From positions 1-33,019 of the IMG/VR virus record IMGVR_UViG_3300009154_000155: 33,019 nt of DNA; one strand, given 5' to 3'. Positions 599 to 33,019 of the stretch are shown piece after piece; within the stretch, counting starts at the first letter, position 1, and each line of letters opens with the position of its first letter. The translations under genes and the position numbers were made by a program. A model generated the notes under the pieces. The model ran no database searches. It was not told the DNA's origin and saw only the letters and a list, made by a program, of their open reading frames with translations. This stretch comes from a virus.

Positions 599-1406
599 CT
601 GTCCTATTAGACTTGACCTTATAATATCTAATTGGTCTGGGGCCATATAAATTATGGTGTCCTGGCCCATACACACCAGATGATTGGTAATGCCAAAACG
701 CTGTTGTTAATATTGGACGCCCCTTATATGCTAGATATAGGGCTATCAGCCTTTCAAACACATGAGGAGTCCAAAATCCCACATCAGTTAGCCTGAGTTT
801 ACTAACCACGCTAGTCAACTTATTGCCCAAATAATTCAATGTGGACCTCGAACACGCGAACTGGTGGCTATATATCATGTTCGGTTGTGTATCAAACGCC
901 CACTCATAAATATCTGGATCATATTTCTTGATTATATCCCACACAAAGATCCCATTATCAAAACAATGTATCTTATATGGGTCATTCTTTGGTATTAGCT
1001 TAGCAGACTCGCGTACCAACCAATCATTCCAAAGTCCTTGATATCCTAACGGAGCTGTTAAAGCCAAAGAAGAGTCAGGTTCTGCATCTAATTGTTTATG
1101 GATTTTGCTCCATATCTCTGACGCCTTGAAATGTGGGCGTATATCAGTATGTAGAAAAGCCACATGATCGTTTGATATTAAATTGTCTGCGTGCTCCCAT
1201 ACAGTTAATATTATCGATGTCTCAAACAAAGCGGAATTCCATGACGCATAAGTCGGAAAGAAATCGGCCGCCTCTGATAAGTCAGCACCAGGTACTTTAG
1301 AAGCACCACATGATATTCCTATAGATTTAACCAGCTTAGATTTAAAAACGTCCTTAGGTAACAAATCTGCTGACTGTGGATGCATCAATACAATAGCTCG
1401 TATCAT
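501..1406 (-). CDS. Probable glycosyltransferase
   Basis: A 301-residue protein without signal peptide or membrane segment. Residues 53-90 carry YASWNSALFETS, then VWEHADN and the segment VAFLHTDIRP, a layout resembling the metal-binding region of DUF4422-type and related GT-A glycosyltransferases, with H86-T-D88 as candidate metal ligand. The middle region has the aromatic, Asp-rich composition common in these enzymes. It shares an ATGA overlap with the upstream GT2-like gene, so the two are translationally coupled and probably act on the same glycan. The donor sugar and acceptor cannot be deduced. The family call rests on weak motif resemblance and gene context. Confidence 0.5.
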   Translation of the reverse strand: MIRAIVLMHPQSADLLPKDVFKSKLVKSIGISCGASKVPGADLSEAADFFPTYASWNSALFETSIILTVWEHADNLISNDHVAFLHTDIRPHFKASEIWSKIHKQLDAEPDSSLALTAPLGYQGLWNDWLVRESAKLIPKNDPYKIHCFDNGIFVWDIIKKYDPDIYEWAFDTQPNMIYSHQFACSRSTLNYLGNKLTSVVSKLRLTDVGFWTPHVFERLIALYLAYKGRPILTTAFWHYQSSGVYGPGHHNLYGPRPIRYYKVKSNRTVIGESHASKSEKLLEQTHTNHHLDPLSLISRY

Positions 1407-2269
1407 GGTCTGCTCCTGTCTTTTACATTAAGTATGCCGTGTTGTTTATCGGTAGCCAGCACTACCTGACTTAAACCCATGGCCTTTATTCGTACTTCTT
1501 GTAGATCATCAGAAACTATAGACATAGGAATATAGCTCGTTAATTCATTTTCGGCCCAATGCATATGTGTACCTAACAATTCTGGGAATCTCATCTTCCA
1601 TTTATGATGCAAATAACGTAACTGTGGCCAATACCTGTTGTCGTCTGATATGCTCGCAGAATATTTCCCGTAATGTACTATTGGCAGATGTGCGCAATAT
1701 ACTGGGTATGCTGCTGATCTTGCCTGCAGGCATAAATCTACTGCATAAAAATGAAAGCCGTTGAACATCGTATCGAACCTTAGACCCGATCTCTTATTCA
1801 CTACCATCAAACATTCATCAACACAATGCGTTAGAGATAATTCCTTAGTCCCACCCCATTCAGGAGGCTGATCTACTGTTTCATCACTGAACCATACTGA
1901 TCCCACTGCAACAGTGGATTGGTTAGCCGCCCCTCCCCACTTACCTATGTCAGCTCTATTATATCTCAGATCTATTCCTGCTGATCCTAGTACAGCCCAA
2001 TCTTTAGGCATCTTGTTAATGTTGTCATATAATATATCAAACCAATCGGATAATAATCTAACATCTTGATGCACGAAAATCAACTTGTCCGATCTGGCAA
2101 CGTCCGCCCCTATATTCAAAGCGTTACTGGCTGAATATCTGTTTTCATAGTTAAAAATAGGAATTATTTCTATATCATATTCTTTTCTTGCAGCATATAT
2201 AGATCTTAAAAGGCACCTGTCAAAAACGTCTGGCTGTGATATGCAGCTAATAATAGAGAAATCGGGCAT
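1403..2269 (-). CDS. GT2-like glycosyltransferase
   Basis: A 288-residue protein matching the general pattern of the 'glycosyltransferase like family' related to GT2 (PF13712-type). The N-terminal Rossmann-like part has IISCISQPDVFDRCLLRSI, followed by YSASNALNIGADVA (residues 45-58) and the metal-binding region LIFVHQDVRL (63-72). Further on are DECLMVVNKR and FNGFHFYAVDLCLQA (169-183), resembling the acceptor-side region with a catalytic acid, and a late HYG (199-201). Expected role: transfer of an activated sugar within the local glycan-assembly gene block. It is the first gene of a minus-strand pair, sharing ATGA with the next gene. No clear ribosome binding site precedes its ATG. Confidence 0.75.
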   Translation of the reverse strand: MPDFSIISCISQPDVFDRCLLRSIYAARKEYDIEIIPIFNYENRYSASNALNIGADVARSDKLIFVHQDVRLLSDWFDILYDNINKMPKDWAVLGSAGIDLRYNRADIGKWGGAANQSTVAVGSVWFSDETVDQPPEWGGTKELSLTHCVDECLMVVNKRSGLRFDTMFNGFHFYAVDLCLQARSAAYPVYCAHLPIVHYGKYSASISDDNRYWPQLRYLHHKWKMRFPELLGTHMHWAENELTSYIPMSIVSDDLQEVRIKAMGLSQVVLATDKQHGILNVKDRSRP

Positions 2270-2278
2270 TGATCAAAT

Positions 2279-2298
2279 TTAAAGTAAACCTGCTTTAA
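2279..2298. promoter_or_regulatory. Short inverted repeat in a divergent intergenic gap
   Basis: TTAAAG and CTTTAA form a perfect 6-bp inverted repeat around an 8-base spacer, in the 43-base gap between the minus-strand glycosyltransferase start at 2269 and the plus-strand small gene at 2313. It could be an operator or part of a promoter shared by the divergent genes. AT-rich arms of this length can arise by chance, so support is weak. Confidence 0.2.
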
Positions 2299-2312
2299 CC
2301 TTGGAGGTAATT

Positions 2313-2540
2313 ATGGCCAATATCACGACAATCACCAACATCTCTAATCAAAGCATTCCGATCTTAGTCAATTCTATCGGATATGCTAGCGTTAATGTTA
2401 ATTCCGATCTTAAACCAGAGGTAACCAATCAGACCTTCGTTACTCCTGGTGCTCAGTTGTCTCTCGAGACTGTACGTCTTGACGAGGCTCAGCTCCAACA
2501 GTTAAGCAAGCTTAAACTGATCACATTCGTCTCTCGCTGA
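2313..2540 (+). CDS. Small beta-rich phage protein, 75 aa
   Basis: The ATG at 2313 follows a strong ribosome binding site (TTGGAGG, spacing 5); an in-frame TTG at 2301 lies before that site and is rejected. The protein begins MANITTITNISNQSIPILV and ends with a Leu/Gln-rich helix (DEAQLQQLSKLK) and the strand LITFVSR. This layout of N-terminal strands, a TPG turn and a terminal helix-strand resembles small structural or decoration proteins of tailed phages, but I cannot name the family. The first 50 residues of the 663-residue glycosyltransferase at 4941-6932 look similar in pattern. It stands alone between divergent genes and is followed directly by a strong terminator, which suggests a separately regulated and perhaps abundant product. 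Confidence 0.8.
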   Translation: MANITTITNISNQSIPILVNSIGYASVNVNSDLKPEVTNQTFVTPGAQLSLETVRLDEAQLQQLSKLKLITFVSR

Positions 2541-2567
2541 TATTTACTAATACCGTTCTTAACATAC

Positions 2568-2596
2568 AAAAGGGTGCGACAAAAGCACCCTTTTGT
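2568..2596 (+). terminator. Rho-independent terminator after the 75-aa gene
   Basis: A perfect 11-bp stem (CAAAAGGGTGC paired with GCACCCTTTTG) encloses a 7-base loop. The right arm carries a TTTT run followed by GTTGT. It lies 28 bases after the stop codon of the small plus-strand gene and before the next plus-strand gene, so it would separate their transcripts. The A-rich left arm gives a T-run on the other strand too, so it could act in both directions. Confidence 0.85.
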
Positions 2597-2626
2597 TGTA
2601 TACATACATCACTCGATAAATAGATT

Positions 2627-3376: not shown

Positions 3377-4022
3377 TTTTATGCCCAGAATAATATCGGT
3401 CGATGACTCGTCTCTCTACGTTGATCACTCGTTTATACACATCCGGTCGGTATTTAGCCCAATATTTTGATGTTCGCCCACCCATATCTGAATCGTTAAC
3501 CCTAGGTATAGATTTTATAACATTTATATCATATTGCAGGCCTATTTGATTGATGGCTTCAATCACTCCATTTAGACCATCTTCTAGTTTAATCACATGC
3601 CTGATTCCGCCTGGTACACCACACATAAATTGATCGATCTCGTATGTGTACCATCCATCAGGTTTATATTCCAGAGCATTGATTACAAACTGATTAAAGT
3701 CATTACTGGCACAATTGTAGTCTAATGGGTGACTCGAATGCCAGCCGTACTTTACTCTAAAAGCCCACCTAGACTGATACCAAGTAATAGGGTGCCTGAC
3801 CATTGTGAATATAAATTTACTTATAAACCAATCTGGCTCATATATTTGACACAGTTGCGGAAAATGAGAATGTTGATGCCCGACTTCTATTGGTGCCGAT
3901 ATCTTTCTCAGTATTTGTGATAACCATACACCCCCGGTCTTTGGAATATGTAAAAACAGATACTTGTCAGTAGCTAATGCCAAATTACACCAACATTTGC
4001 TTAGCCTGGTCCTCAAACCCAA
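3339..4022 (-). CDS. Sulfotransferase (PAPS-dependent type)
   Basis: A 227-residue protein with the two cofactor-binding signatures of sulfotransferases: FLHIPKTGG (residues 23-31), the 5'-phosphosulfate loop, and MVRHPITWYQS (74-84), the 3'-phosphate-binding segment. Expected role: transfer of sulfate from PAPS to a sugar hydroxyl or similar acceptor. It has no membrane anchor. It follows the group 1-type glycosyltransferase with a 38-base overlap, if the TTG start at 4022 is used. A second in-frame TTG, about 40 bases later and just after the upstream stop codon, is an alternative start. Context suggests it decorates the glycan built by the neighbouring enzymes; the acceptor is unknown. Confidence 0.8.
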   Translation of the reverse strand: MGLRTRLSKCWCNLALATDKYLFLHIPKTGGVWLSQILRKISAPIEVGHQHSHFPQLCQIYEPDWFISKFIFTMVRHPITWYQSRWAFRVKYGWHSSHPLDYNCASNDFNQFVINALEYKPDGWYTYEIDQFMCGVPGGIRHVIKLEDGLNGVIEAINQIGLQYDINVIKSIPRVNDSDMGGRTSKYWAKYRPDVYKRVINVERRVIDRYYSGHKINPSDHVGPRPW

Positions 4023-4944
4023 GCAACTTTAACAAACCAGCCATACGGTGATGATATGTATGATTAGCCAGCACCTCATCATGTTGCTTACGAGCTATTT
4101 CGACTCTCTCTGCGTCATTATTTATATAATGCAAACATAAATCTCTAAAATGTTGGGGATTTGCAGCTACTAATGCTGATGGTATCATACGCCTCAGGTG
4201 TAATACAGAATCGTGTATCACTAACGCACCACAAAGAGCCACCTTAAAAGCTCTCTCTGGTATATCGATCCCGTATTGGTGGGTGTGCTGCTCAGATATA
4301 CAAGGAGCTATTTTACCACTGTTCAAAAAAGAATTAACTTGATCGCTGGCTAGTGTGCCACCGCATATTTTATCTGGCCATTCTCCCCAACCCCTCACAG
4401 CCATTTTCCGATTTTGTAGTTTTAGTTCTTCAATCACAGGTATTAAATATGCATCTATAGTTTTAGCTTTATATTTCCACCTACCACCTAAATAAACTAG
4501 ATCCAAATCACGATCATCATATGATTTAACTTTTTTAAATAATACTCGATCTGCTGCACAAGGCATGGGTACCCAATCGATACCATATTGAGCGGACCAC
4601 CCACTCCACATTATGCCATCATCATCATGACCGTAGCCAAACACAACATCGGGCTTCTGCTCTACTACCCATTGTACGTTATCAAGTGATTCGTTTATTC
4701 CTTCTATTTCTACAGGACCATGTGGGTTGACGTGCAATGCTATTTTGCAATCATTTCGTTCTTTTGGTATAGGCTGTTTATGGCCTGAACAGCCAATATA
4801 TACTTTTGGTTTAAACTCACGCCATGATTCTATTCGCCCATCCCATCTTCTTACTTGATGGCCCTTATCGTGTAGAGCGTTTTGCCACCCATCAGAAATG
4901 TATCCAAAAGCACCATCCGGTCGGTGGCATAATAAAATATTCAC
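3985..4944 (-). CDS. Group 1 / CgeB-like glycosyltransferase
   Basis: A 319-residue protein with GT-B features. The N-terminus (MNILLCHRPDGAFGYISDGW) resembles the first beta-strand and glycine loop of a Rossmann fold, followed by the moderately conserved LDNVQWVVEQKPDVVFGYG. The nucleotide-sugar region is at residues 217-245: SEQHTHQYGIDIPERAFK, then ALCGALVIHD, the typical GIPxRxFEALACG-like signature of CgeB and 'glycosyl transferases group 1' proteins. A closing helix (EVARKQHDEVLANHTYHHR-like region, 280-305) also fits this family. It overlaps the 663-residue glycosyltransferase by an ATGA and the sulfotransferase downstream, so all three are probably co-translated and work on one structure. 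Confidence 0.8.
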   Translation of the reverse strand: MNILLCHRPDGAFGYISDGWQNALHDKGHQVRRWDGRIESWREFKPKVYIGCSGHKQPIPKERNDCKIALHVNPHGPVEIEGINESLDNVQWVVEQKPDVVFGYGHDDDGIMWSGWSAQYGIDWVPMPCAADRVLFKKVKSYDDRDLDLVYLGGRWKYKAKTIDAYLIPVIEELKLQNRKMAVRGWGEWPDKICGGTLASDQVNSFLNSGKIAPCISEQHTHQYGIDIPERAFKVALCGALVIHDSVLHLRRMIPSALVAANPQHFRDLCLHYINNDAERVEIARKQHDEVLANHTYHHRMAGLLKLLGFEDQAKQMLV

Positions 4945-6932
4945 GATATGCCCATCTCTCTTAAAGTCTGTCCATACCCATTTTGTTTAAGCTGGGTTAT
5001 TTGTTTGTTTATTCTTTGGCTTACTGATAATTTTTTCAGATATGATTCTAGCTCTTTATTAATATCGTGATGGTCATTCCATCCTTCTACTCGAGAGTGC
5101 CATAAGTGAATCAGATCATAGTCACGATCTCCACACCAATTGGATGACTCAGACAAGCGTTTGTAAAAGTCACAGTCTTCGCATCCATATCCATAGAAAT
5201 CTTCATTAAAAGCACCACAACGCCAATATGCTCTCTTTGTGCATGCTAACGAGCCACCCTCATAATAACCGACCACTCGTTCACATATCGTCGACTCTCC
5301 CATTTCTCCAGTGATATTGATTTGTTCACATGATTGTTTATCTGTATACAATACTCTAGAGCCAATATGACATGCGTCAGCATGTTCTAATATTTGCCAT
5401 ATTTTCCTAGCATAATCTCCGAATGTCATCATGTCAGCATCATGTAATATCAATTTATCACTGGTGGCTACAACCACTGCTTGGTTAAAAGCATATGACT
5501 TATTAAAAAGCTGTTCGTCTTTGCTGGCCATTACATAAGATACCGGTTCATACGCTTGGACGTCTATACGGGAAACCACATCCTGTTCAGATATGATTAT
5601 ATGTATCACAGGAAACCGCTGTGCCCTAATATTATTTAATACTGTTTTGATAGCACCTGTTCTCTCATGGTCTCTAAAAGGTATAATATATGTTATTTCA
5701 TCTACGGCTGATACTGCACTAGGAGGCACCTTCTGTCTAGGCTCTCTGTCCTTAAAGATGGCTTTTGCCTTGGCAAGTGACGCTTCTCTATCACTCACCG
5801 CTGATCTTTCATCATGCAGCATCATGTATCTGTCTGAGCCCATCACATCATAAAAGCCTCTTTGCTGTAAGCCGAACTCGTGTGCTTTCGCGGACCAATC
5901 GACATGTTCCATTCCATATAAACCATATTGCTCATTGAAATAACCACAACTGTTCAGCATCTTGTGGGTGAAGACTAACACAGCTCCTTGTGGTTTATCG
6001 TCGACCTTATTCAGTATGATCCCGCTAGCGTTAACCGGCACTCCTTGTTTAGCACCATATATGCCATTCTGCCTGAGCATCAAATGATGCATTCCTGTTT
6101 GTTCTAAAGCGCGCGTATAAAAGTATTCCCATCCTTCATCTAAAACTTCTACATCATCATTTAACAATATGCCATATTTAAATCTGCTTAAACACCTGAG
6201 CAGTCGGTTACTATTACCAGCCACACCCAGCCTGTGTGTGCTTCTAATAATCGTAAAATCACCGGACGCATCTAATTCGTTTAGGTATTCGACCAATTCT
6301 GGGTCTGTGCTACCATCATCACTAATAAACACGGTTGTTTTATATATATTAGTGTGCCGACGTATAGATGTTACTAATCTCTTAAGGCTCTTATACCGTT
6401 GATAAGATAGTATTCCTACTCCGATATTATTACTCAATGGAACTCGTTCTCCATTTAAATATGAAGACATCGATATATGGGCTTTCTTATTGACAGCTAT
6501 ACCGACTATTTTTTCTATATCAGATGTAGAACGATCGATTATCTCAGGTGTACGCTTCTGGTGCTCAGTAGGCTTTCTGGTTTTATTTGGCTTACTCTGT
6601 TTTACTGTATTCTTCTGGCTTCTCAGTGTGCGTCGATCTTTGAGCTTTGACTTGTCTATCCCCAATATCTCAGTATGTTTATTCTGTCCAGCGTCGACGA
6701 TGGGTTTATTAGTACCAGTTCTTGCTATTCTCTTCAGCTCAGCCAACTTTGGTTGTATCTTAGCTTCTATATTCAATTCTCCCGAACCTACTGCCCTTAT
6801 TAATCCGCGACTGACATATCGGTCAAAATAAGCAGGTAATTCTATCTTAGAATGTGGTCTTATTCTTATTACTAACCCATCAGCCCCTACTAGAGGCACT
6901 ATATATGGATTAGGATTTATATAATAAGGCAT
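4941..6932 (-). CDS. Two-domain GT2 glycosyltransferase with N-terminal beta domain
   Basis: A 663-residue protein with three parts. Residues 1-50 form a small beta-prone domain (YINPNPYIVPLVG, RIRPHSKIELPAYF). Residues 55-165 are a basic, low-complexity linker rich in Lys, Arg and Thr. Two GT-A domains follow. The first (168-380) has VGILSYQRY, ISDDGSTD (203-210), LLNDDVEVL (256-264) and GMEHVDWS (340-347). The second (412-640) has YIIPFRDHERT, ILHDADMMTF (495-504) and GYGCEDCDFYKRL (581-593), as in polymerising GT2 enzymes and the C-terminal galactosyltransferase domain. Paired GT2 domains occur in chondroitin-synthase-like polymerases, so it may add two alternating sugars. The N-terminal domain could tether it to a partner. 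Next gene overlaps by ATGA. Confidence 0.85.
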   Translation of the reverse strand: MPYYINPNPYIVPLVGADGLVIRIRPHSKIELPAYFDRYVSRGLIRAVGSGELNIEAKIQPKLAELKRIARTGTNKPIVDAGQNKHTEILGIDKSKLKDRRTLRSQKNTVKQSKPNKTRKPTEHQKRTPEIIDRSTSDIEKIVGIAVNKKAHISMSSYLNGERVPLSNNIGVGILSYQRYKSLKRLVTSIRRHTNIYKTTVFISDDGSTDPELVEYLNELDASGDFTIIRSTHRLGVAGNSNRLLRCLSRFKYGILLNDDVEVLDEGWEYFYTRALEQTGMHHLMLRQNGIYGAKQGVPVNASGIILNKVDDKPQGAVLVFTHKMLNSCGYFNEQYGLYGMEHVDWSAKAHEFGLQQRGFYDVMGSDRYMMLHDERSAVSDREASLAKAKAIFKDREPRQKVPPSAVSAVDEITYIIPFRDHERTGAIKTVLNNIRAQRFPVIHIIISEQDVVSRIDVQAYEPVSYVMASKDEQLFNKSYAFNQAVVVATSDKLILHDADMMTFGDYARKIWQILEHADACHIGSRVLYTDKQSCEQINITGEMGESTICERVVGYYEGGSLACTKRAYWRCGAFNEDFYGYGCEDCDFYKRLSESSNWCGDRDYDLIHLWHSRVEGWNDHHDINKELESYLKKLSVSQRINKQITQLKQNGYGQTLREMGIS

Positions 6933-25578: not shown

Positions 25579-26171
25579 TCTAATTCGACCATGTCTGCGT
25601 CGTCTATTTCTACTTCCTCTGTTAAGCCTTGAGCTGATTCGATCCTCTTCTTTAATGGAGGTACATTAACGAATCCTACTGGGTCGGCATTGGTTTGCTC
25701 ATTAATGTCTGTCTTCTTCTTACTTCTCTTATTTTTCTTTATGTTCTGCTTGGGTTCGTCTTTAGTCTCAGAAGCGACATCTGGGTGTTGTTCTTCAGGC
25801 ATATCGAATCTTTGTTCTACTGTCGTGTCGATATTGCAAATATCATTATTTTTACAAAGCAGTGGTTCATCTGTTGGTGCTTCCTCATTTTTCCTGAACC
25901 TATTAACGGTTCCGACCTTGATTTTCGATTTATCCTTACACAGGTGGCATTCAATATACACTCCTGATGGGCACTCACCCTGGCTTATATTAATCTCAAG
26001 GCCTTGGCCACAATCTGGACAGGCACTAGTCAATAAAATCGGCTTAATTAGCTCACCATCCTTATTTTTCAAAGTATGTATGTTTATTGGGTCAGAGTCG
26101 AATGCCACAGGTCTACCATATGTCTCTTTGCCATTTATCTTGATCTTAACTAGGTCATATGGATTATACAT
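25575..26171 (-). CDS. Zinc-ribbon protein, 198 aa
   Basis: The start at ATG 26171 has an AGGG site. Residues 1-45 are beta-rich (YDLVKIKINGKETYGRPVAF), then a ribbon C51-PD-C54 and C75-HL-C78 with further cysteines at 67 and 105/111. The C-terminal half (115-198) is polar and highly charged, with a basic run KNKRSKKK and an acidic end. The layout resembles phage proteins that bind nucleic acid or transcription factors. It is coupled by ATGA to the oxidoreductase gene and follows another zinc protein by eight bases. No family is recognised. Confidence 0.65.
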   Translation of the reverse strand: MYNPYDLVKIKINGKETYGRPVAFDSDPINIHTLKNKDGELIKPILLTSACPDCGQGLEINISQGECPSGVYIECHLCKDKSKIKVGTVNRFRKNEEAPTDEPLLCKNNDICNIDTTVEQRFDMPEEQHPDVASETKDEPKQNIKKNKRSKKKTDINEQTNADPVGFVNVPPLKKRIESAQGLTEEVEIDDADMVELE

Positions 26172-26179
26172 TTTTATCC

Positions 26180-26749
26180 CTAACTATTAGTAGACCACTC
26201 TGACGCTTGTTTTTTCACCAACTCTGACTTATTTACCATATCTTTAAATGACTCCTGACATACATTTATATCGAGTAATCTATCGTATGTCGAGGTATTA
26301 GCTGTCCTTGTAAACGAGCTACCTTTGCAATTGCTACATATTTTATCACTATCTCTAGTCTGTTGTCTGCATGTTGTGCAAATGTTGGGCTGGCCTGATG
26401 TAGACACATTTACTTCTGTCACACAACATAAATAATAATTATAGTTAGCACCTAATATTTTCCTACCACTAATTTCGCAAATTACCGTATTACTCGTACC
26501 CCGTTTTCTCACATCATTAGTCATAGTAGATTGATAGTTTTTAATCACTTCCATTTTTATATTGTCATAGCATTGCTGGCATATGTCCAGCGAGTGAACT
26601 ATCTTAGATCTTAATAATTCCCTTAAAGCTAACCTTCTACCTGATATGACGGATACGACCCTGAAATCGAACGAATAATATGTAAAGTCTAATTTATGAG
26701 TGGTACCACATTGATCACATGCTATTCCATCTTTACTAACTAGTTGCAT
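26180..26749 (-). CDS. Multi-cysteine zinc-finger protein, 189 aa
   Basis: Starts at ATG 26749 inside the 3' end of the polymerase gene (14-base overlap) behind GGAAG. It carries several cysteine pairs: C11-x2-C14, C57-x2-C60, C108-C109, C124-x2-C127 and C138-x2-C141, with basic residues between them (ISGRRLALRELLRSK). The spacing is that of two or three stacked zinc ribbons. The protein is probably a nucleic-acid or protein adaptor; its coupling to the polymerase gene suggests a link with the replisome, but that is inference. No family is recognised. Confidence 0.7.
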   Translation of the reverse strand: MQLVSKDGIACDQCGTTHKLDFTYYSFDFRVVSVISGRRLALRELLRSKIVHSLDICQQCYDNIKMEVIKNYQSTMTNDVRKRGTSNTVICEISGRKILGANYNYYLCCVTEVNVSTSGQPNICTTCRQQTRDSDKICSNCKGSSFTRTANTSTYDRLLDINVCQESFKDMVNKSELVKKQASEWSTNS

Positions 26750-29441
26750 GTTGCTTCCGTTTTAGTCTAAGAATAGCTTCATTTCTTGCTACTGAGAAGA
26801 TATTTCTAGTAGGGTCATAATTGACGTATAATTGTACTCCTACGCCTGGTTTTAATGTATCTTGATTTTGATGTTTGATTTCTGACTCCCACATTAAGAC
26901 TAATGTCTGTTGTATACCATCACTTATTATTATCTTAGCGAAATCTTTATCATTTTTGGTCTTACCATAATCTACGCTTACGATAACTCCTTCTAATCTG
27001 GTTGATGTGTCTTTAGTAGAATAATCTTTAGCTGTTTCAATAGAGCATTGTCCCTTACACTCGTATAGATCTAAAGGAGAATGTAAATAATACCCTAAAT
27101 AGTCTTTCTCAAACTGCAGCACTTCCACAAGAGAGAAGTCTTCAGTTACCAATGCCATTACATTATCACGAGAATCATTTGGACTCGGTTTCCAATTTAT
27201 TAGCTTTTCAGGAACTTTCCTTCTATTAGGATAAGCCTTCTTGTATTCAGTGATCTGCCTTTTTCTCTCTTGCTCGATAGTCTGATCATTCCATCCTTCT
27301 GCAGCTAGTAATTGCTCTTTGATAGTTGTCCTAAGTGCAGTAATATCTTTCCCACTGCAATATTTATATTGATACCATGTCCATACAGCCTTCGAATTGC
27401 TATGTCCTTGCATATATTTGAAAGCACCCAATTTTATGAACCGCTCGCATGCGGCTTTATCTTTTCCACCTGTTTTTGTAATAAACTCGTCGATGTCCGC
27501 ATAAACGCCTTTTCGCTCGTACTTTACAGCAGCTGTTTCCCCTATACCTTTTATTCCGATTAAGCCCTGATTGACCGTGTCTCCTGTTACAGTGAAACTC
27601 CTTGTCATATTTTCTAAATTTAGCGTATCAAATATGACTCCATCCGATTTTTTAGCAGGACGATGTTTCCCAGAATAAGTGATTTCGGTCGGCCTCCATT
27701 TTTCAGACCTAGCTATCCCCATATATCTTACTAGCTTTTCTTGGTGGCAATCGCTCATCACTGCGGCCCACCATTCTGGTGTAAAATGAGCTTTGAGCCA
27801 AAGACATCTATGAGCTACCAAACAATAACTGACGGCGTGGCTTTTATTGAAAGCATAACGACCGAATGTCTCCATTTTGGCCCACCATGCTTCTGCATCC
27901 TTATCACTCATAGACCTGCTCGCACCCTTAAGCCATTTTTCTCTTATGGGTTTTAGTTTATGAGTCCATTTTTTGGCTACAGCCTTACGTGCTTCTTGGG
28001 CCTCGGGAGCTGTAAACCCTGCCATTATCTGCCAAATAGCTTGCAATTGCTCCTGGTAAACGATTACACCATATGTATACTTTAATATTTCATAAATAGG
28101 TTTAGGCAAAGCAGATCGCCAATCTTTCTTGAAATTATCTCTATTTTCTACTGCTTCTGGAATCGAAGCCATTGGGCCTGGATGGCCCATAGCATTAAAC
28201 AACATTAAGTCATCGAAGTTGCGTACACCATTCGATAATATTTGTTTAGCTAAATCTGTGTCGAATTGGAAAACACCATCTGTTTTTAATTCGTTAGCTA
28301 ATCTTAAGGTATGTTCGTCATTAAGTAATATATCACATTTCTTTCCGGTTCCATCAATATACCATCCTGCTATCCCGGTTTCGGGATCGTTATAGTCCCA
28401 TCCTTCCATGTTAGGTCCGAAAGATATACCGCGATTGGCTTCTATCAATTTACAACATTCAAAAATATATTTAAGTGTTTTGAGACCAAGTATATCCCAT
28501 TTATTATATCCAAATTTAGATAATTGAGCATTGCGGCCTTCTGTCCACATACTGACCCAATAGCCTTTGCTGCTGCTTTTAGCCATTGGGATATTACCGA
28601 ATAGTGACCTATCTGCTATTATGAGAGCACCAGCATGCATGCCCATATTACGCACACGACCCACCAGTTTAACAGCATATCCAACTACTGTTTTATGCGT
28701 AGAAGCGAAATTTCTTAATATTTCGTATTCTTGTAATAACTTACCTATGGTTGGGGCATCAGTGTCTGCTGAACCACATCTTGGGCATTCGGTTAAGCTA
28801 TGAATAAATCCGCATTCTTTTTCCTCTCCATTATCAATAATGCGGTTTTTGCAAGCGGCCTCACCTCCGTCTTTTAATTGATCGACTTCATCTGGCAATT
28901 GAGTAGTCAGCTCGAAAGCTACACTTCTATCCACCAATCCTGTTCCAGCACAAGCATCAATAATAGCGTTTTTGAATTTATAAGTCTGCCAAGTTCCTAC
29001 AGAACAGACAGGACCATATCCATCCGTTATACCCATACTATATGTCTTAGCGGCATATTCTTTAATAGGATCTCTAGCTTCTGGTAAGCAATCTAGATCA
29101 ATGTCTGGCATGTCTGTATCTTTAATAAAATCAGAAGGAATACTCCCATATTTGGCTCGGTATTCTTTGACTTTTGATGCTCTAACTGTGTTTAATATAA
29201 TATCATTCCTACTAAGTATAGGATCCTCATTAACCATATTTAATAACCACGGTAACACTAAATTATTTGGATTGGTAGCGAATTTCTTATTATCGTTATA
29301 ATATATTTCCCACTTAGCACTAGCACCTTGTTTTTCTATTTCAATAATTTCAAAAGCCAAACGTTCTTGATATTTTTTATCTAGACCACGATCGGACACT
29401 ACTCGATAAGCTAATTCCTTTATCTGATCCCAATTCTTCAT
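26736..29441 (-). CDS. DNA polymerase III alpha subunit, C-terminal half (split gene)
   Basis: A 901-residue protein covering the catalytic-Asp part of the palm, thumb, fingers and OB fold of DnaE-type polymerases. MPDIDLDC (111-118) matches MPDFD-x-DFC with D113 and D115 as metal ligands. GYNKWDILGLKTL (311-323), FQFDTDL and FDDLMLFNAMGHPGPM (409-424), YGVIVYQEQ (457-465), RYAFNKSHAVSY (528-539) and the HhH-like GLIGIKGIGE (626-635) are all typical. An OB-like strand region follows (about 790-860). The PHP domain and the GSAGGS loop are missing and lie in a separate gene at 30669-32117. A four-cysteine cluster (C197, C210, C219, C222) is inserted in the palm/thumb. ATGA overlap with the upstream zinc-finger gene. 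Confidence 0.93.
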   Translation of the reverse strand: MKNWDQIKELAYRVVSDRGLDKKYQERLAFEIIEIEKQGASAKWEIYYNDNKKFATNPNNLVLPWLLNMVNEDPILSRNDIILNTVRASKVKEYRAKYGSIPSDFIKDTDMPDIDLDCLPEARDPIKEYAAKTYSMGITDGYGPVCSVGTWQTYKFKNAIIDACAGTGLVDRSVAFELTTQLPDEVDQLKDGGEAACKNRIIDNGEEKECGFIHSLTECPRCGSADTDAPTIGKLLQEYEILRNFASTHKTVVGYAVKLVGRVRNMGMHAGALIIADRSLFGNIPMAKSSSKGYWVSMWTEGRNAQLSKFGYNKWDILGLKTLKYIFECCKLIEANRGISFGPNMEGWDYNDPETGIAGWYIDGTGKKCDILLNDEHTLRLANELKTDGVFQFDTDLAKQILSNGVRNFDDLMLFNAMGHPGPMASIPEAVENRDNFKKDWRSALPKPIYEILKYTYGVIVYQEQLQAIWQIMAGFTAPEAQEARKAVAKKWTHKLKPIREKWLKGASRSMSDKDAEAWWAKMETFGRYAFNKSHAVSYCLVAHRCLWLKAHFTPEWWAAVMSDCHQEKLVRYMGIARSEKWRPTEITYSGKHRPAKKSDGVIFDTLNLENMTRSFTVTGDTVNQGLIGIKGIGETAAVKYERKGVYADIDEFITKTGGKDKAACERFIKLGAFKYMQGHSNSKAVWTWYQYKYCSGKDITALRTTIKEQLLAAEGWNDQTIEQERKRQITEYKKAYPNRRKVPEKLINWKPSPNDSRDNVMALVTEDFSLVEVLQFEKDYLGYYLHSPLDLYECKGQCSIETAKDYSTKDTSTRLEGVIVSVDYGKTKNDKDFAKIIISDGIQQTLVLMWESEIKHQNQDTLKPGVGVQLYVNYDPTRNIFSVARNEAILRLKRKQHATS

Positions 29442-29857
29442 AGCATGCCCTTGTACTCATCTAACTTATCGGGATGTTTAGATTTAATGTGTAAAGTCCG
29501 CCCCGGTGTGCTTGACATTTTTTTATTACAAAAAGGACATACAAGCGACCGTTCTTCTGTGATTGGCGGTGCGACCTGAACACTGGGCTGAACTTCAACA
29601 CTGTCCTCCTTCTCTGTGTTGTCAGAGAACATATCGATATAGTTTTTAGCTGATTCTTCATCAACTATTAACGGTTGATCAGTGTAATATTTATTTCCTT
29701 TTTTTATGACATGGGAATAATATAGCAACAATTCATTATGTTTAGCTGTCTCGATTAGCTTGATATGCTCATGCCTGTTGTTGATCTTATGTGTAGAAAC
29801 TACCTTAGAAGGAGGTTTGATCAGCACAAAGGCAGTCTTCTCATAATTGATGTTCAT
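29438..29857 (-). CDS. C2H2-type zinc-finger protein, 139 aa
   Basis: I choose ATG 29857 (MNINYEKTAF) behind AGGAAG; a TTG at 29890 would add eleven residues. The N-terminal 75 residues are mixed and basic (VLIKPPSKVVSTHK); the middle is acidic and Pro/Val-rich (KEDSVEVQPSVQVAPP). A single C2H2 finger is visible near the end: C107-PF-C110, H123 and H128, with the linker KMSSTPGRTLHIKSKH. The gene overlaps the polymerase gene by ATGA, lying between the two halves of the polymerase. It may contact DNA or the polymerase; no family is recognised. Confidence 0.7.
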   Translation of the reverse strand: MNINYEKTAFVLIKPPSKVVSTHKINNRHEHIKLIETAKHNELLLYYSHVIKKGNKYYTDQPLIVDEESAKNYIDMFSDNTEKEDSVEVQPSVQVAPPITEERSLVCPFCNKKMSSTPGRTLHIKSKHPDKLDEYKGML

Positions 29858-29899
29858 GTTCTTCCTAATACACGTTATTCCGCTATTCAATCTGCCTAA

Positions 29900-30154
29900 T
29901 TACAAATGGCCCATATATTTCACAGCAATAAAAGTGCCTATAAACGCACCGCATGCTAAGGGAATAATGTACAATGGATTCTCTAAATAATTCATAACCC
30001 CATATGCACCTATGCTATATAATATCGAGCTTATAACACTAGCCCGCAAAGCTCTTTGTTGACTAACACACATGACATAAAGAGCATATAATATATCGAA
30101 TAATATATATATAACGAATACAATAACGGCGGTGTACCAGCTAAAATCCTTCAT
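29900..30154 (-). CDS. Small integral membrane protein, 84 aa
   Basis: ATG 30154 follows GGAG with five bases spacing. The chain has about three hydrophobic segments (residues 7-28, 38-53 and 60-78) and few charged residues: YTAVIVFVIYILFDILYALY, then SVISSILYSIGAYGVMNYL and LYIIPLACGAFIGTFIAVKY. The small size and spacing recall phage membrane proteins including some holins, but no lysis genes are nearby, so I do not call it a holin. It is the second of three genes that separate the two polymerase halves, and is coupled to the gene before it by ATGA. Confidence 0.75.
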   Translation of the reverse strand: MKDFSWYTAVIVFVIYILFDILYALYVMCVSQQRALRASVISSILYSIGAYGVMNYLENPLYIIPLACGAFIGTFIAVKYMGHL

Positions 30155-30642
30155 AATGTCTCCGCTTGTTCTCCGGGTCTTGTCTGGTGATTATTCAGCT
30201 GACGTCCATCAACTTCAAAAATCGTAGGGTATACTGCGCCAGTAAATGTCCCCAGAGCATCTAATGCTTTGCCTATAGCGACAAGCACAGCCGTTTTAGC
30301 CACCCTCTTGTCATTTAGTCCTCTTACCTGGCCTAACGTTATTAATATATTATCAGAATAAGATCTGACATTCTCTGGCATATGATTACCTTTGTTTTTC
30401 GCTACTTGGCCCCTCGCATCAATCGCCTGTTGAACATGCACCGCTATTGCCTCTACGATACTAAAGGCCAACAACAATGTTTCCTGCTTTTTCCTTTGAA
30501 TATCATCATCTTCTAATAAATCGATCGTTTTTACCAAAAAAGCACAAAGCTGCTGGCTCGGACCTGCCATTATTAACAGATGAATCTTTATAGAATGCTT
30601 AAGTTCGCTAATCGCTATTTCTAAATCTTTTGTCTCTGTCAT
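30151..30642 (-). CDS. Helical hypothetical protein, 163 aa
   Basis: ATG 30642 follows GGAG. The protein is mostly helical with long amphipathic stretches (ISELKHSIKIHLLIMAG, LLLAFSIVEAIAVHVQQAID, TAVLVAIGKALDALGTF) and one polar linker (RGQVAKNKGNH). The last 25 residues are polar. No cysteine motif, no clear membrane segment and no recognised family. It follows the N-terminal polymerase gene by 26 bases and overlaps the membrane-protein gene by ATGA, so it is in the same transcript as both polymerase halves. Confidence 0.7.
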   Translation of the reverse strand: MTETKDLEIAISELKHSIKIHLLIMAGPSQQLCAFLVKTIDLLEDDDIQRKKQETLLLAFSIVEAIAVHVQQAIDARGQVAKNKGNHMPENVRSYSDNILITLGQVRGLNDKRVAKTAVLVAIGKALDALGTFTGAVYPTIFEVDGRQLNNHQTRPGEQAETL

Positions 30643-30668
30643 TTAATGACTCCAGCAATTGTAATAAA

Positions 30669-32117
30669 TCAACTGATTGGATCTGGCATGTCTACGTTTA
30701 ACATATAACCACCTCTACTAGGTGATAAAAACCTATCAAACGATAGACCCCACAACATAGGATTCAACGTATGGATGCCCATCAAGAAACACACCAAAGA
30801 ACCACCAGCACTGCCTCTTGGGCTAAACGGCCAACCTCTTTGTCTACCATAGTTAACAAGATCTTGAGTTATTAAAAAATAACTCGAATATCCCTTATCG
30901 ATAAATCTATTTAATTCTATTTTAGCTTGCTCAACGTATGTCACTTCTTTTCCGTCTATTAAATATCTCTTAGTTATTTTATCGTATCCACCTTCCTTTA
31001 AGCGTTTGGCTACGATCTGCTTGATAGAATCATCAGCATTATCTATTTCAGGTATCTTAGGGGACGTGTCTACATCAAATGCTACGCATTTTTCTGCTAT
31101 TTTCAATGTATTATCACACATCACTTCAAATATTCTATCGTCTATACCTTCGCTATATTTATTGTTTTTAAATCTAGACCACAATTCAGCTCTAGATTGT
31201 ACGAATTGCTCACTACTATTAACATGAAATAAATCGGGAGAATCCATAGTTGTTTCTTGAGCCACAGCCATCATAAGCTTTTGCAATTCGAAGTCTTTGC
31301 GATCTAAATAATGACAATCATTGGTCAAAACGACAGGTATATTGTATTTATCGGCTATAGCTATTGACCACTTGAAGACAGCATCATCACTTACCGTTTT
31401 TTCGCCCCACTTATCAATGGCTTCAATACCAGGCATCTGTAATTCTATATAATAGTCATCACCAAATTCTTTTTTAAACATCTTTACATATTTTATAGCA
31501 TCATTGAAAGCTTGTTGTTTATCTCGTTCGAAAATCTTGACGCCTTCTTTATCCTTAAGGAAGCGATGCCTAAGTTCATGACTAATTGGGCCATTTAAGC
31601 AGCCTGATAATATAATAAGACCTTCTTTATACTCACATAGCTTTTCAAACCATATTCGGTTATACTGCGTCCTACCCATGCCGAATAAACCAGTCTCATA
31701 TGCTTGAGTAGTAAGTTTTAATAAATTATGGTATCCTACTTCGTTTTTACATAATATAGTTAAATGTCTGTTTCTAGATATCCTAGCAGAAATATCAGGA
31801 TTATTTTTTCTCCATTCGGGAGATCTGACCTTTGTTCCGCTTTGTTCCAGCGTTTGTCTATGCGGTTCCCAGTCATTATAATATATTTCACATCCTGGAA
31901 TATACTTGATTCCATATTTTTTAAACGCCAAGTACATGTCGGGTACCGATGCCATATGCCCGTGCTCAGTAGCACTCATAGCAGGATACCCACGCTCAGA
32001 GCATAATTTAGCGTATTGTTCTGGAGTGGCTACACCATCCAGAGCAGAAAATACAGTGTGATTGTGCAAATGTACAAATTGCGTAGAACCACTATAATCT
32101 TTGGGATCATATGCCAT
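30669..32117 (-). CDS. DNA polymerase III alpha subunit, N-terminal half with PHP domain (split gene)
   Basis: A 482-residue protein. Residues 12-320 are a PHP domain with its metal ligands kept: HLHNH (16-20), SALDG (24-28), TEHGHM (50-55), GCEIYY (75-80), NRHLTIL (H118), LSGCLNG (C173) and the late LTNDCHYL. An intact PHP site suggests a metal-dependent proofreading nuclease, as in many bacterial DnaE proteins. The last 90 residues are the first part of the palm, with YFLITQDLV and the nucleotide-binding loop PRGSAGGSLV, then SFDRFLSPSR. The frame ends VDMPDPIS, where normal enzymes continue into the catalytic PD-x-D-x-D. The rest lies in the gene at 26736-29441. Confidence 0.92.
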   Translation of the reverse strand: MAYDPKDYSGSTQFVHLHNHTVFSALDGVATPEQYAKLCSERGYPAMSATEHGHMASVPDMYLAFKKYGIKYIPGCEIYYNDWEPHRQTLEQSGTKVRSPEWRKNNPDISARISRNRHLTILCKNEVGYHNLLKLTTQAYETGLFGMGRTQYNRIWFEKLCEYKEGLIILSGCLNGPISHELRHRFLKDKEGVKIFERDKQQAFNDAIKYVKMFKKEFGDDYYIELQMPGIEAIDKWGEKTVSDDAVFKWSIAIADKYNIPVVLTNDCHYLDRKDFELQKLMMAVAQETTMDSPDLFHVNSSEQFVQSRAELWSRFKNNKYSEGIDDRIFEVMCDNTLKIAEKCVAFDVDTSPKIPEIDNADDSIKQIVAKRLKEGGYDKITKRYLIDGKEVTYVEQAKIELNRFIDKGYSSYFLITQDLVNYGRQRGWPFSPRGSAGGSLVCFLMGIHTLNPMLWGLSFDRFLSPSRGGYMLNVDMPDPIS

Positions 32118-32222
32118 TGTTCATATCTATTGAAAGTTTTTGCTTTTGAATACAATGGCCACTTCGATACAAACACATATCAATACTAACCAGAATACAA
32201 ATGCAGTCCGTCACATATTATG
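32118..32222. other. Gene-free gap between Hsp70-like and polymerase genes
   Basis: About 105 bases, AT-rich, between the stop of the Hsp70/actin-like gene and the polymerase N-terminal start at 32117. No hairpin with a T-run is visible. It may hold a promoter for the polymerase operon, but I could not pick convincing -35 and -10 elements. Confidence 0.3.
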
Positions 32223-33019
32223 TCAAAACATTTCAGCTGCCTTTAGGCAGCCAGTCGCTACGGAATACAATGGCTGTTCGGCCCTTTTGATAGTTCCTAC
32301 TTCAAAAGGCGGTTCTAATTGATTTAACTTTTCAGCGCATCTTTCTACGAAACCAACTGGCGACGAGGTGCCGCCAGCCATAAATATAGGCACAGCACCT
32401 TCAATTCTCGCTTCAGACTCGTTCTGCTTAAAGCCTTCAACAATGCCTTCTATCACTTGATTTATAAGCACGTCGTAATGAAGCACTATATCCATCGCTA
32501 ATCTATCATTACTATAATCTACACCCGGAGTCAAGTCTACTTCAGTCTTCTTCTTGGCCACAGTTGTCGGCGTTTCCTTCGCCTTTTTCTTCATAGTGTT
32601 TACAGCATTTGGATCATACCCATGCCTAGATGCTACTTGTGAGTCTATCCAATCACCGGCACCTACCCAACAGAAAGAGTATACTTCTAAACCGTACATG
32701 ACGTAGCTAACAGTTACAGTACCTGCCCCCCATGATATCCCTATTCCAGTACCGTCTTCACTCATGTCTATAACAATAGCGTGGGATTCATATATCGAAT
32801 TATATGATAGCTTGGCCTTGGTATCATAACCCTCGAGAACCAAATTAACGACTCTCTGATGATAATCTATATTCGAATGCTTGTTTATCGCTTTAGCAGT
32901 AGTACAATAACATAGCTTAACTTGATCATCGAACTTTCCTACATCATGCTCAGCCATAGTCATTAAACCCTGAACTATAGCAGCTAACACGGTCATAGCC
33001 GCTTCATCTGCTGCTATGC
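32223..33019 (-). CDS. Hsp70/actin-like ATPase, 3' part (runs off right edge)
   Basis: The frame stays open to the right edge (265 codons), so the N-terminal nucleotide-binding part is missing. The visible part has the Hsp70/actin layout: ADEAAMTVLAAIVQG, then GIGISWGAGTVTVSY (phosphate 2 motif, DxGxGT-like), the turn GAGDWIDSQVA, and FMAGGTSSPVGFVERC followed by EQPLYSVATGCLKAAEMF, matching the adenosine motif and final 'AxGAxxAA' helix of DnaK-type proteins. A 20-residue basic Lys/Thr-rich insert (about 134-152) interrupts it. It could be a chaperone-like, plasmid-segregation-type or cytoskeletal ATPase. Its 3' end lies 105 bases before the polymerase N-terminal gene. Confidence 0.75.
   Translation of the reverse strand, partial: IAADEAAMTVLAAIVQGLMTMAEHDVGKFDDQVKLCYCTTAKAINKHSNIDYHQRVVNLVLEGYDTKAKLSYNSIYESHAIVIDMSEDGTGIGISWGAGTVTVSYVMYGLEVYSFCWVGAGDWIDSQVASRHGYDPNAVNTMKKKAKETPTTVAKKKTEVDLTPGVDYSNDRLAMDIVLHYDVLINQVIEGIVEGFKQNESEARIEGAVPIFMAGGTSSPVGFVERCAEKLNQLEPPFEVGTIKRAEQPLYSVATGCLKAAEMF

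Follow-up and report, generated by a model that had tools for sequence, protein, structure and literature searches.

The 33,019-nucleotide window (the whole stretch of viral DNA analysed here) encodes a DnaE-type DNA polymerase in two pieces: an N-half and a C-half that are separate genes, tile one polymerase, complement each other's catalytic elements and are conserved, the C-half opening with a copy of the palm start that has no GS loop (Table 1). By sequence the pair would be assigned to the C-family polymerases (DnaE), the PHP, palm, fingers and helix-hairpin-helix (HhH) domains all being found. In the available text of PMC3666897 the usual description of this family is PHP, palm, thumb and fingers domains in a single polypeptide; here they are spread over two genes, with the break at position 99 of the Pfam family PF07733, and we therefore term the split DnaE a variant.

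Table 1. Features of the split-polymerase locus and of the family-A-like gene; positions are those of the window.
Feature	Position	Strand	Basis and remarks
Volactin-family (actin-like) gene, cut by window end	32223-33017	-	PF25216; adjoins polymerase N-half
N-half of DnaE, 482 aa	30669..32117	-	ORF; PHP domain, palm start, GS loop
PHP domain, residues 16-227	31437..32072	-	Pfam (PF02811, 4.3e-35); seven of nine presumed metal-ligand positions inside
N-half share of palm, residues 374-469	30711..30998	-	PF07733 positions 4-99
GS loop RGSAGGS, residues 434-440	30798..30818	-	in N-half; absent from matching C-half place
Tail VDMPDPIS, poorly conserved	30672..30695	-	sequence; pLDDT under 50 at 466-482
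Intervening gene 1, 163 aa	30151..30642	-	ORF; 0 Pfam / PHROG matches
Intervening gene 2, 84 aa	29900..30154	-	membrane protein by eye; Pfam DUF5968 0.0089, under cut-off
Intervening gene 3, 150 aa	29438..29890	-	C2H2-like end by eye; no Pfam match
C-half of DnaE, 901 aa	26736..29441	-	ORF; PF07733 99-260, fingers, HhH
Loop-less palm copy (leader), residues 1-107 of C-half	29121..29441	-	hhalign, AF2 pLDDT, dN/dS
Catalytic DMPDIDLDC motif, residues 110-118	29088..29114	-	D113, D115, D117 invariant, 18 sequences
Third catalytic aspartate D316 in KWDILGLKT	28494..28496	-	invariant, 18 sequences; role assumed from known DnaE
Fingers domain, residues 352-509	27915..28388	-	PF17657 5.1e-29
Helix-hairpin-helix, residues 614-680	27402..27602	-	PF14579 4.5e-6
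OB-fold region, residues 797-897	26751..27053	-	model matches OB folds, Z about 9.4-11
Small family-A polymerase-like protein, 398 aa	15122-16318	-	hmmscan 28.5 bits, under curated cut-off 34.3

The division runs through the palm. Pfam places positions 4-99 of PF07733 on the N-half and positions 99-260 on the C-half, so that the two halves tile one DnaE polymerase and the break falls after the GS loop and before the DxD motif. In other records, phrog_405 is covered up to 439-440 by the whole N matches and, in most cases, from 440-441 onward by the C matches. A palm with GS loop, DxD and third aspartate is complete only when both proteins are taken together. A split within the palm, with the GS loop and the catalytic carboxylates on two proteins, had been proposed earlier from the letters of this DNA alone (the sequence-only reading), and the Pfam tiling and the recurrence of the arrangement in many contigs bear this out. 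That reading also had the gene coordinates, the quoted motifs (TDMPDIDLDC of the C-half among them) and the three genes between the halves right; it put the N-half stop six residues after VDM, where the actual count is five. Its statement that both parts carry DMPD holds for the window and for few other members, as MPD occurs in 3 of 14 distinct N-half ends (a count that takes L021-L024, which share a tail, once and omits N-halves missed by the motif, L056-L058 among them; L numbers denote loci). The window's N-half terminates in ...SRGGYMLNVDMPDPIS.

The catalytic positions are strictly kept. H18, H20, D27, H52, E77, H118, C173, D267 and H269, which we take to be the metal-ligand positions of the PHP domain, are invariant in 15 N-half sequences, as are R434, G435, S436, A437, G439 and S440 of the GS loop. 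All nine PHP positions are identical to those of the M. tuberculosis chain 7pu7_A in an alignment inspected by eye, and, according to the available text of PMC3666897, nine PHP residues bind three metals.

On the minus strand the ORF list gives, in order, the Volactin-family gene, the N-half, three small genes and the C-half, the start of which overlaps the stop of intervening gene 3 (ATGA). No endonuclease was matched in the three intervening genes (Pfam and PHROGs, E up to 0.01). By eye, a gene similar to intervening gene 1 follows the N-half in L020, L021 and L054, and a Volactin-like gene lies upstream of the N-half in L021-L024, a different gene taking that place in L020. The window is part of the 178,026-bp IMG/VR contig IMGVR_UViG_3300010885_055964 (G001), with 2 differences in the 16,281 bases compared, and both DnaE frames are likewise open on this parent contig. 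A frameshift, sequencing or assembly error at the break is ruled out, since the frames are identical in the two records and the break recurs in other metagenomes.

Relatives from other metagenomes, with 60-63% identity in the N-half and 50-53% in the C-half, carry the same two genes among similar neighbours. When phage sequences were searched for the identical break point in a census of 59 IMG/VR contigs (L083-L175; class labels derive from HMM ranges on stop-to-stop frames, and lengths overrun by a few residues), 46 contigs, near copies such as L117-L119 and L123/L124 included, had both halves as separate genes, the loop-less palm copy at the start of the C-half (the ‘leader’) recurring. The remaining 13 comprise two contigs with the N-half only, eight with the C-half only, two with a single chain and one with a cut inside the leader. 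Four of the C-only contigs have an N-half elsewhere on the same record; one of the N-only contigs has a C part that runs off the contig end, and the C part of the other, L133, was classed apart, its leader being very divergent. In contig 3300045738_002037 the halves lie at 143,820-145,241 (+) and 85,427-87,625 (-), about 56 kb apart and on opposite strands. Left out of the census were the 42 loci L176-L217, about 28-32% identical, in which single chains prevail among the rows listed; the gene of L185 is interrupted at the FNKSH site, and L207 and L213 run to the end of their contigs. In the phages collection 1,210 records match the C-half, all at under 60% identity, and the 18 regions examined among them divide into 10 single chains (one of them a fragment that lacks both ends), 4 genes cut near the GS/DxD junction, with intron- or endonuclease-like spacers, and 4 cut elsewhere. 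A motif-pattern scan of genome contigs returned 37 pattern matches and no relatives.

The palm origin of the leader rests on profile comparison: a profile of 18 leaders matches 13 loop-bearing palms (including two from PHP-less third genes, see below) with an hhalign score of 48.9 (P 4.3e-9), whereas 100 column shuffles reach 11.9 at most; the gap in the alignment falls at the GS loop. Against the N-half palms of its own group the score is only 13.7, which does not suggest a recent derivation of the leader from the N-half palm. In the relative L058 Pfam aligns the C-half from PF07733 position 2, and palm likeness is plain by eye in the L056-L058 leaders (e.g. NGLVFPYLLGITNVDPI in L056). Leader residues Y24, R27, E31, Q38, G39, L61 and P74 are invariant in 18 sequences, and the GS loop is absent at the matching place in the 27 leaders listed; away from that place a stray RGS occurs after DP in L061, and a GS before NPN in L042. 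Leader dN/dS is 0.06 and 0.03 in the two of 78 pairs that passed the saturation filter (one of them at dS 1.27), which indicates purifying selection. The sequence-only reading had seen here an eroded copy of the palm region before the loop; the homology stands, but the copy runs past the loop to DxD and only the loop is missing. Nor was its residue pairing between leader and N-half the best alignment, because the leader has its nearer match in ordinary palms, not in the N-half palms of its group.

Separate AF2 models of the halves suggest that these tile a DnaE and that the leader lies outside the palm, although the shallow alignments (15 and 18 rows) make the models suggestive rather than proof. 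The N-half model (15 rows; pLDDT 84, pTM 0.75) aligns over residues 9-464 to E. coli DnaE 1-392 (2hnh, Z 32.8, rmsd 10.0; the best row is 5lew, Z 33.9), the rmsd of about 10 Å over the whole implying that domains are shifted. The C-half model (18 rows; mean pLDDT 80, pTM 0.61) has block means of 75-93 over residues 1-100 of the leader and poor ones of 28-63 in the palm-core parts 101-150 and 261-320. All 15 DnaE/PolC rows listed (best Z 21.3) align to it only from model residue 108-115 onward, corresponding to 397-403 in E. coli DnaE chains, with the leader outside; the leader would therefore not be placed in the palm, and the palm of the isolated C-half looks incomplete.

We consider it probable that this polymerase is made as two cooperating proteins. 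Judged from sequence, the N and C proteins would associate without covalent joining, and the GS (triphosphate-binding) loop of the first and the aspartates of the second would form one active site; the PHP domain of the N protein would proofread, and the leader, kept out of the palm's place, would be a docking or folding element. Consistent with proofreading by PHP, only one of the 11 contigs searched yielded a DnaQ-type nuclease (PF00929). As to origin, a dnaE palm may have been duplicated or recruited, one copy losing everything after the DxD junction and the other the PHP domain and the GS loop, and the split probably occurred once, early in the phage group. It is unlikely that the C protein is instead self-sufficient, holding the loop-less leader in the palm position, with the N protein a separate PHP nuclease bearing a leftover palm piece: while the leader shares homology and collinearity with the palm start, and PHP-less DnaE-like proteins do occur in phages, the loop that the leaders have lost is kept in the N-halves, and the AF2 model shows no alignment of the leader with the palm.

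Considerably less probable still is that the halves are joined after transcription or translation, by a split intron or by protein trans-splicing. Firmicute phages do break dnaE near here: in Lactobacillus phages Maenad and Satyr and Staphylococcus phages SpP and RQ1 it is found, as in the window, in two annotated genes, and the break, no more than some 25 residues from the window's, falls at DxD or between it and the GS loop. The parts are separated by a group I intron match in Maenad (RF00028, 52.5 bits) and by an unnamed or endonuclease gene in Satyr, SpP and RQ1, and are presumed to be joined in the mRNA; unlike the window's C-half, the annotated C parts start close before or after DxD and have no palm leader. 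Relatives of the window also have split-intein-like breaks at other sites. However, at a lax setting (E up to 5) window positions 26000-33019 gave no intron match, the setting yielding an intron in one of four intron-like controls (in Maenad, none in L079-L081), and at Rfam gathering scores no intron was found in the window, in 7 phage-record loci (Maenad and L078 among them) or in 7 relatives. Neither window half matches an intein model or carries an intein-length extension, which rules out an intein at the GS/DxD break. Moreover, the C-half has its own start, the ATGA overlap and a conserved leader, and one contig encodes the two halves on opposite strands. The family phrog_7513 (461 aa, ‘unknown function’) could be taken for an N-half family already known; in phage VFW it covers 5-458, adjoined by phrog_12219 at 462-1272. 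It may stem from intron-split Firmicute phage genes, Maenad, SpP and RQ1 being cut nearby.

The phage has other replication genes. The window also encodes RecA/UvsX, a DnaB helicase, a gp32-like SSB, a UvsY-like protein and a 5'-3' exonuclease, which makes the split DnaE part of a replication module. Outside the window, the parent contig carries a third DnaE-like gene of 583 aa (G001 875-2626 (-); L009/L010) that is PHP-less and has the GS loop and DxD in one chain; 18 further contigs searched yielded a relative of 561 aa on G002 only, and the third genes of G001 and G002 form their own long branch in the C tree. Beyond these PHP-less genes, no full-length DnaE, which the sequence-only reading had allowed for, was found on the parent and the 18 further, possibly incomplete, contigs. 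The family-A polymerase-like gene has matches in 10 of 11 related contigs, 9 of them above the cut-off (none on G001 in this search, though hmmscan of the window gives the sub-threshold match in Table 1), and no family-B polymerase was found in the 11 contigs. With the family-A-like and third DnaE-like genes present, the split DnaE need not be the sole replicase and may share replication work with other polymerases. That the pair is decaying, with replication left to the third gene or to the small family-A polymerase, is suggested by the presence of these genes and is nevertheless very improbable, since the catalytic residues do not vary in either half, two pairs of C-halves are under purifying selection, and the third gene was found in only 2 of 19 contigs, some of which are fragments.

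The trees, quick ones with SH-aLRT support only, unite the C core of the window clade in one branch (100), adjoined (98) by the single-chain phage DnaE of LR756511 (1,179 aa), which differs from the window's in being one polypeptide with a normal GS loop. In the C tree the divergent split group L123-L134 joins the window clade (98), and the single-chain L029 (LR756511) and L127 nest within that group (96). In the N tree L029/L127 and three split rows form a 100-supported group that joins the single-chain L176 (91) and not the window clade, and the 21 split rows as one clade are rejected (AU p 5e-7). The first C tree lacks the single-chain L065, L066 and L072, skipped by the motif; later trees add L065 and L066, L072 is in none, L073 was left out of the N tree, and the PHP-less third genes were left out of the later C tree. 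The leaders of the two split groups score 89.5 (hhalign, P 2e-17) against each other versus 52.9 against ordinary palms and share a derived form, N-x-N-x-L replacing the loop, which favours one leader origin and re-fusion in LR756511/L127. On the 595-kb LR756511 record the leader profile found nothing besides the gene's own palm, weakly. These comparisons suggest that the LR756511 and L127 chains may be re-fusions of a split ancestor; alternatively, there may have been two independent splits. The sequence-only reading's dnaE duplication with reciprocal loss fits, although DMPD is kept in only those few N-half ends and the leader is nearer to ordinary palms, and the copy may or may not derive from the phage's own dnaE. 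To the fullest version, a lineage of large-phage two-subunit C-family replicases with a composite active site, a single GS loop/DxD split, a loop-less palm copy as docking module and re-fusion in LR756511/L127, we would give about even odds of being correct.

The cyanobacterial split DnaE is broken at the FNKSH site and bears intein halves. It resembles the window in having two dnaE genes and differs from it in both of these traits, the FNKSH site lying inside the window's C-half; in the window's relative L054 a cyanobacterial-type FNKSH break is additional to the palm break. The available text of PMC3919608, which describes the division of the cyanobacterial polymerase into two genes by an intein, contains no word beginning with ‘phage’. 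A precedent is provided by the 43A/43B proteins of T4-like phages 44RR and 25, a two-protein phage replicative polymerase: the phage 25 proteins co-purify and are active as a polymerase, and, unlike the window's pair, 43A/43B belong to family B, with no duplicated domain mentioned in the available text of PMC2988022. The same text describes NrdA of phage Aeh1 as remaining active although the split falls in a region critical to its function; that protein is a ribonucleotide reductase split by a homing endonuclease gene, whereas the window's is a polymerase. A search of open-licence papers found no description of the two-piece DnaE arrangement.

Since the break is kept in dozens of environmental phage sequences, an enzyme otherwise made in one piece appears to run as a stable two-piece machine. 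A nucleotidyltransferase core is cut between its two signature elements, and both the cut and the duplicated loop-less palm piece have been kept through wide divergence. It can therefore be tested how one active site persists across two proteins, what role the duplicated piece plays and whether LR756511-type chains are natural re-fusions; a natural two-part DnaE would also allow the proofreading PHP part and the polymerising part to be mixed and mutated separately.

Breaks and insertions of other kinds were seen among the relatives, and none of the extra breaks of L038, L054, L055, L061, L062 and L064 is at the window's GS/DxD junction. The C-halves of L054, L061, L062 and L064 have a split-intein-like break at the FNKSH site. 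Between its FNKSH-site pieces L054 carries a free-standing gene of 512 aa that weakly matches Vsr (E 0.023), and the pieces themselves align with PRK09532 (to 871/876) and PRK07373 (from 2), intein part included; we take these to be the two cyanobacterial split-DnaE models. L055 and L064 have intein-like insertions, with PF14890 below the cut-off in both and Hint_2 and intein_Cterm above it in L064. In L038 (2238-13660) dnaE is spread over four ORFs; besides the palm break, ends resembling those of split inteins occur at the GS loop and at GHPGPM. In one subclade (L099, L105, L107, L113, L136 and L167) separate ORFs encode the leader and the DxD part. The tail of the leader ORF is intein-like (such as AKDLKIGDEL), and in five of the six this ORF is followed by a short one ending in PD[IV], the DxD ORF beginning there. 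This break may be a degenerate split intein or a break of another kind. L133 (3300020156_000448), a further split DnaE, is very divergent and has a palm-like leader of a different kind (NKANCYLSYLIGVTD); family matches there run through stop codons. Finally, away from the polymerase genes, the window holds a cluster of glycosyltransferase-like genes at 3985-6932 and 1403-2269 (-).
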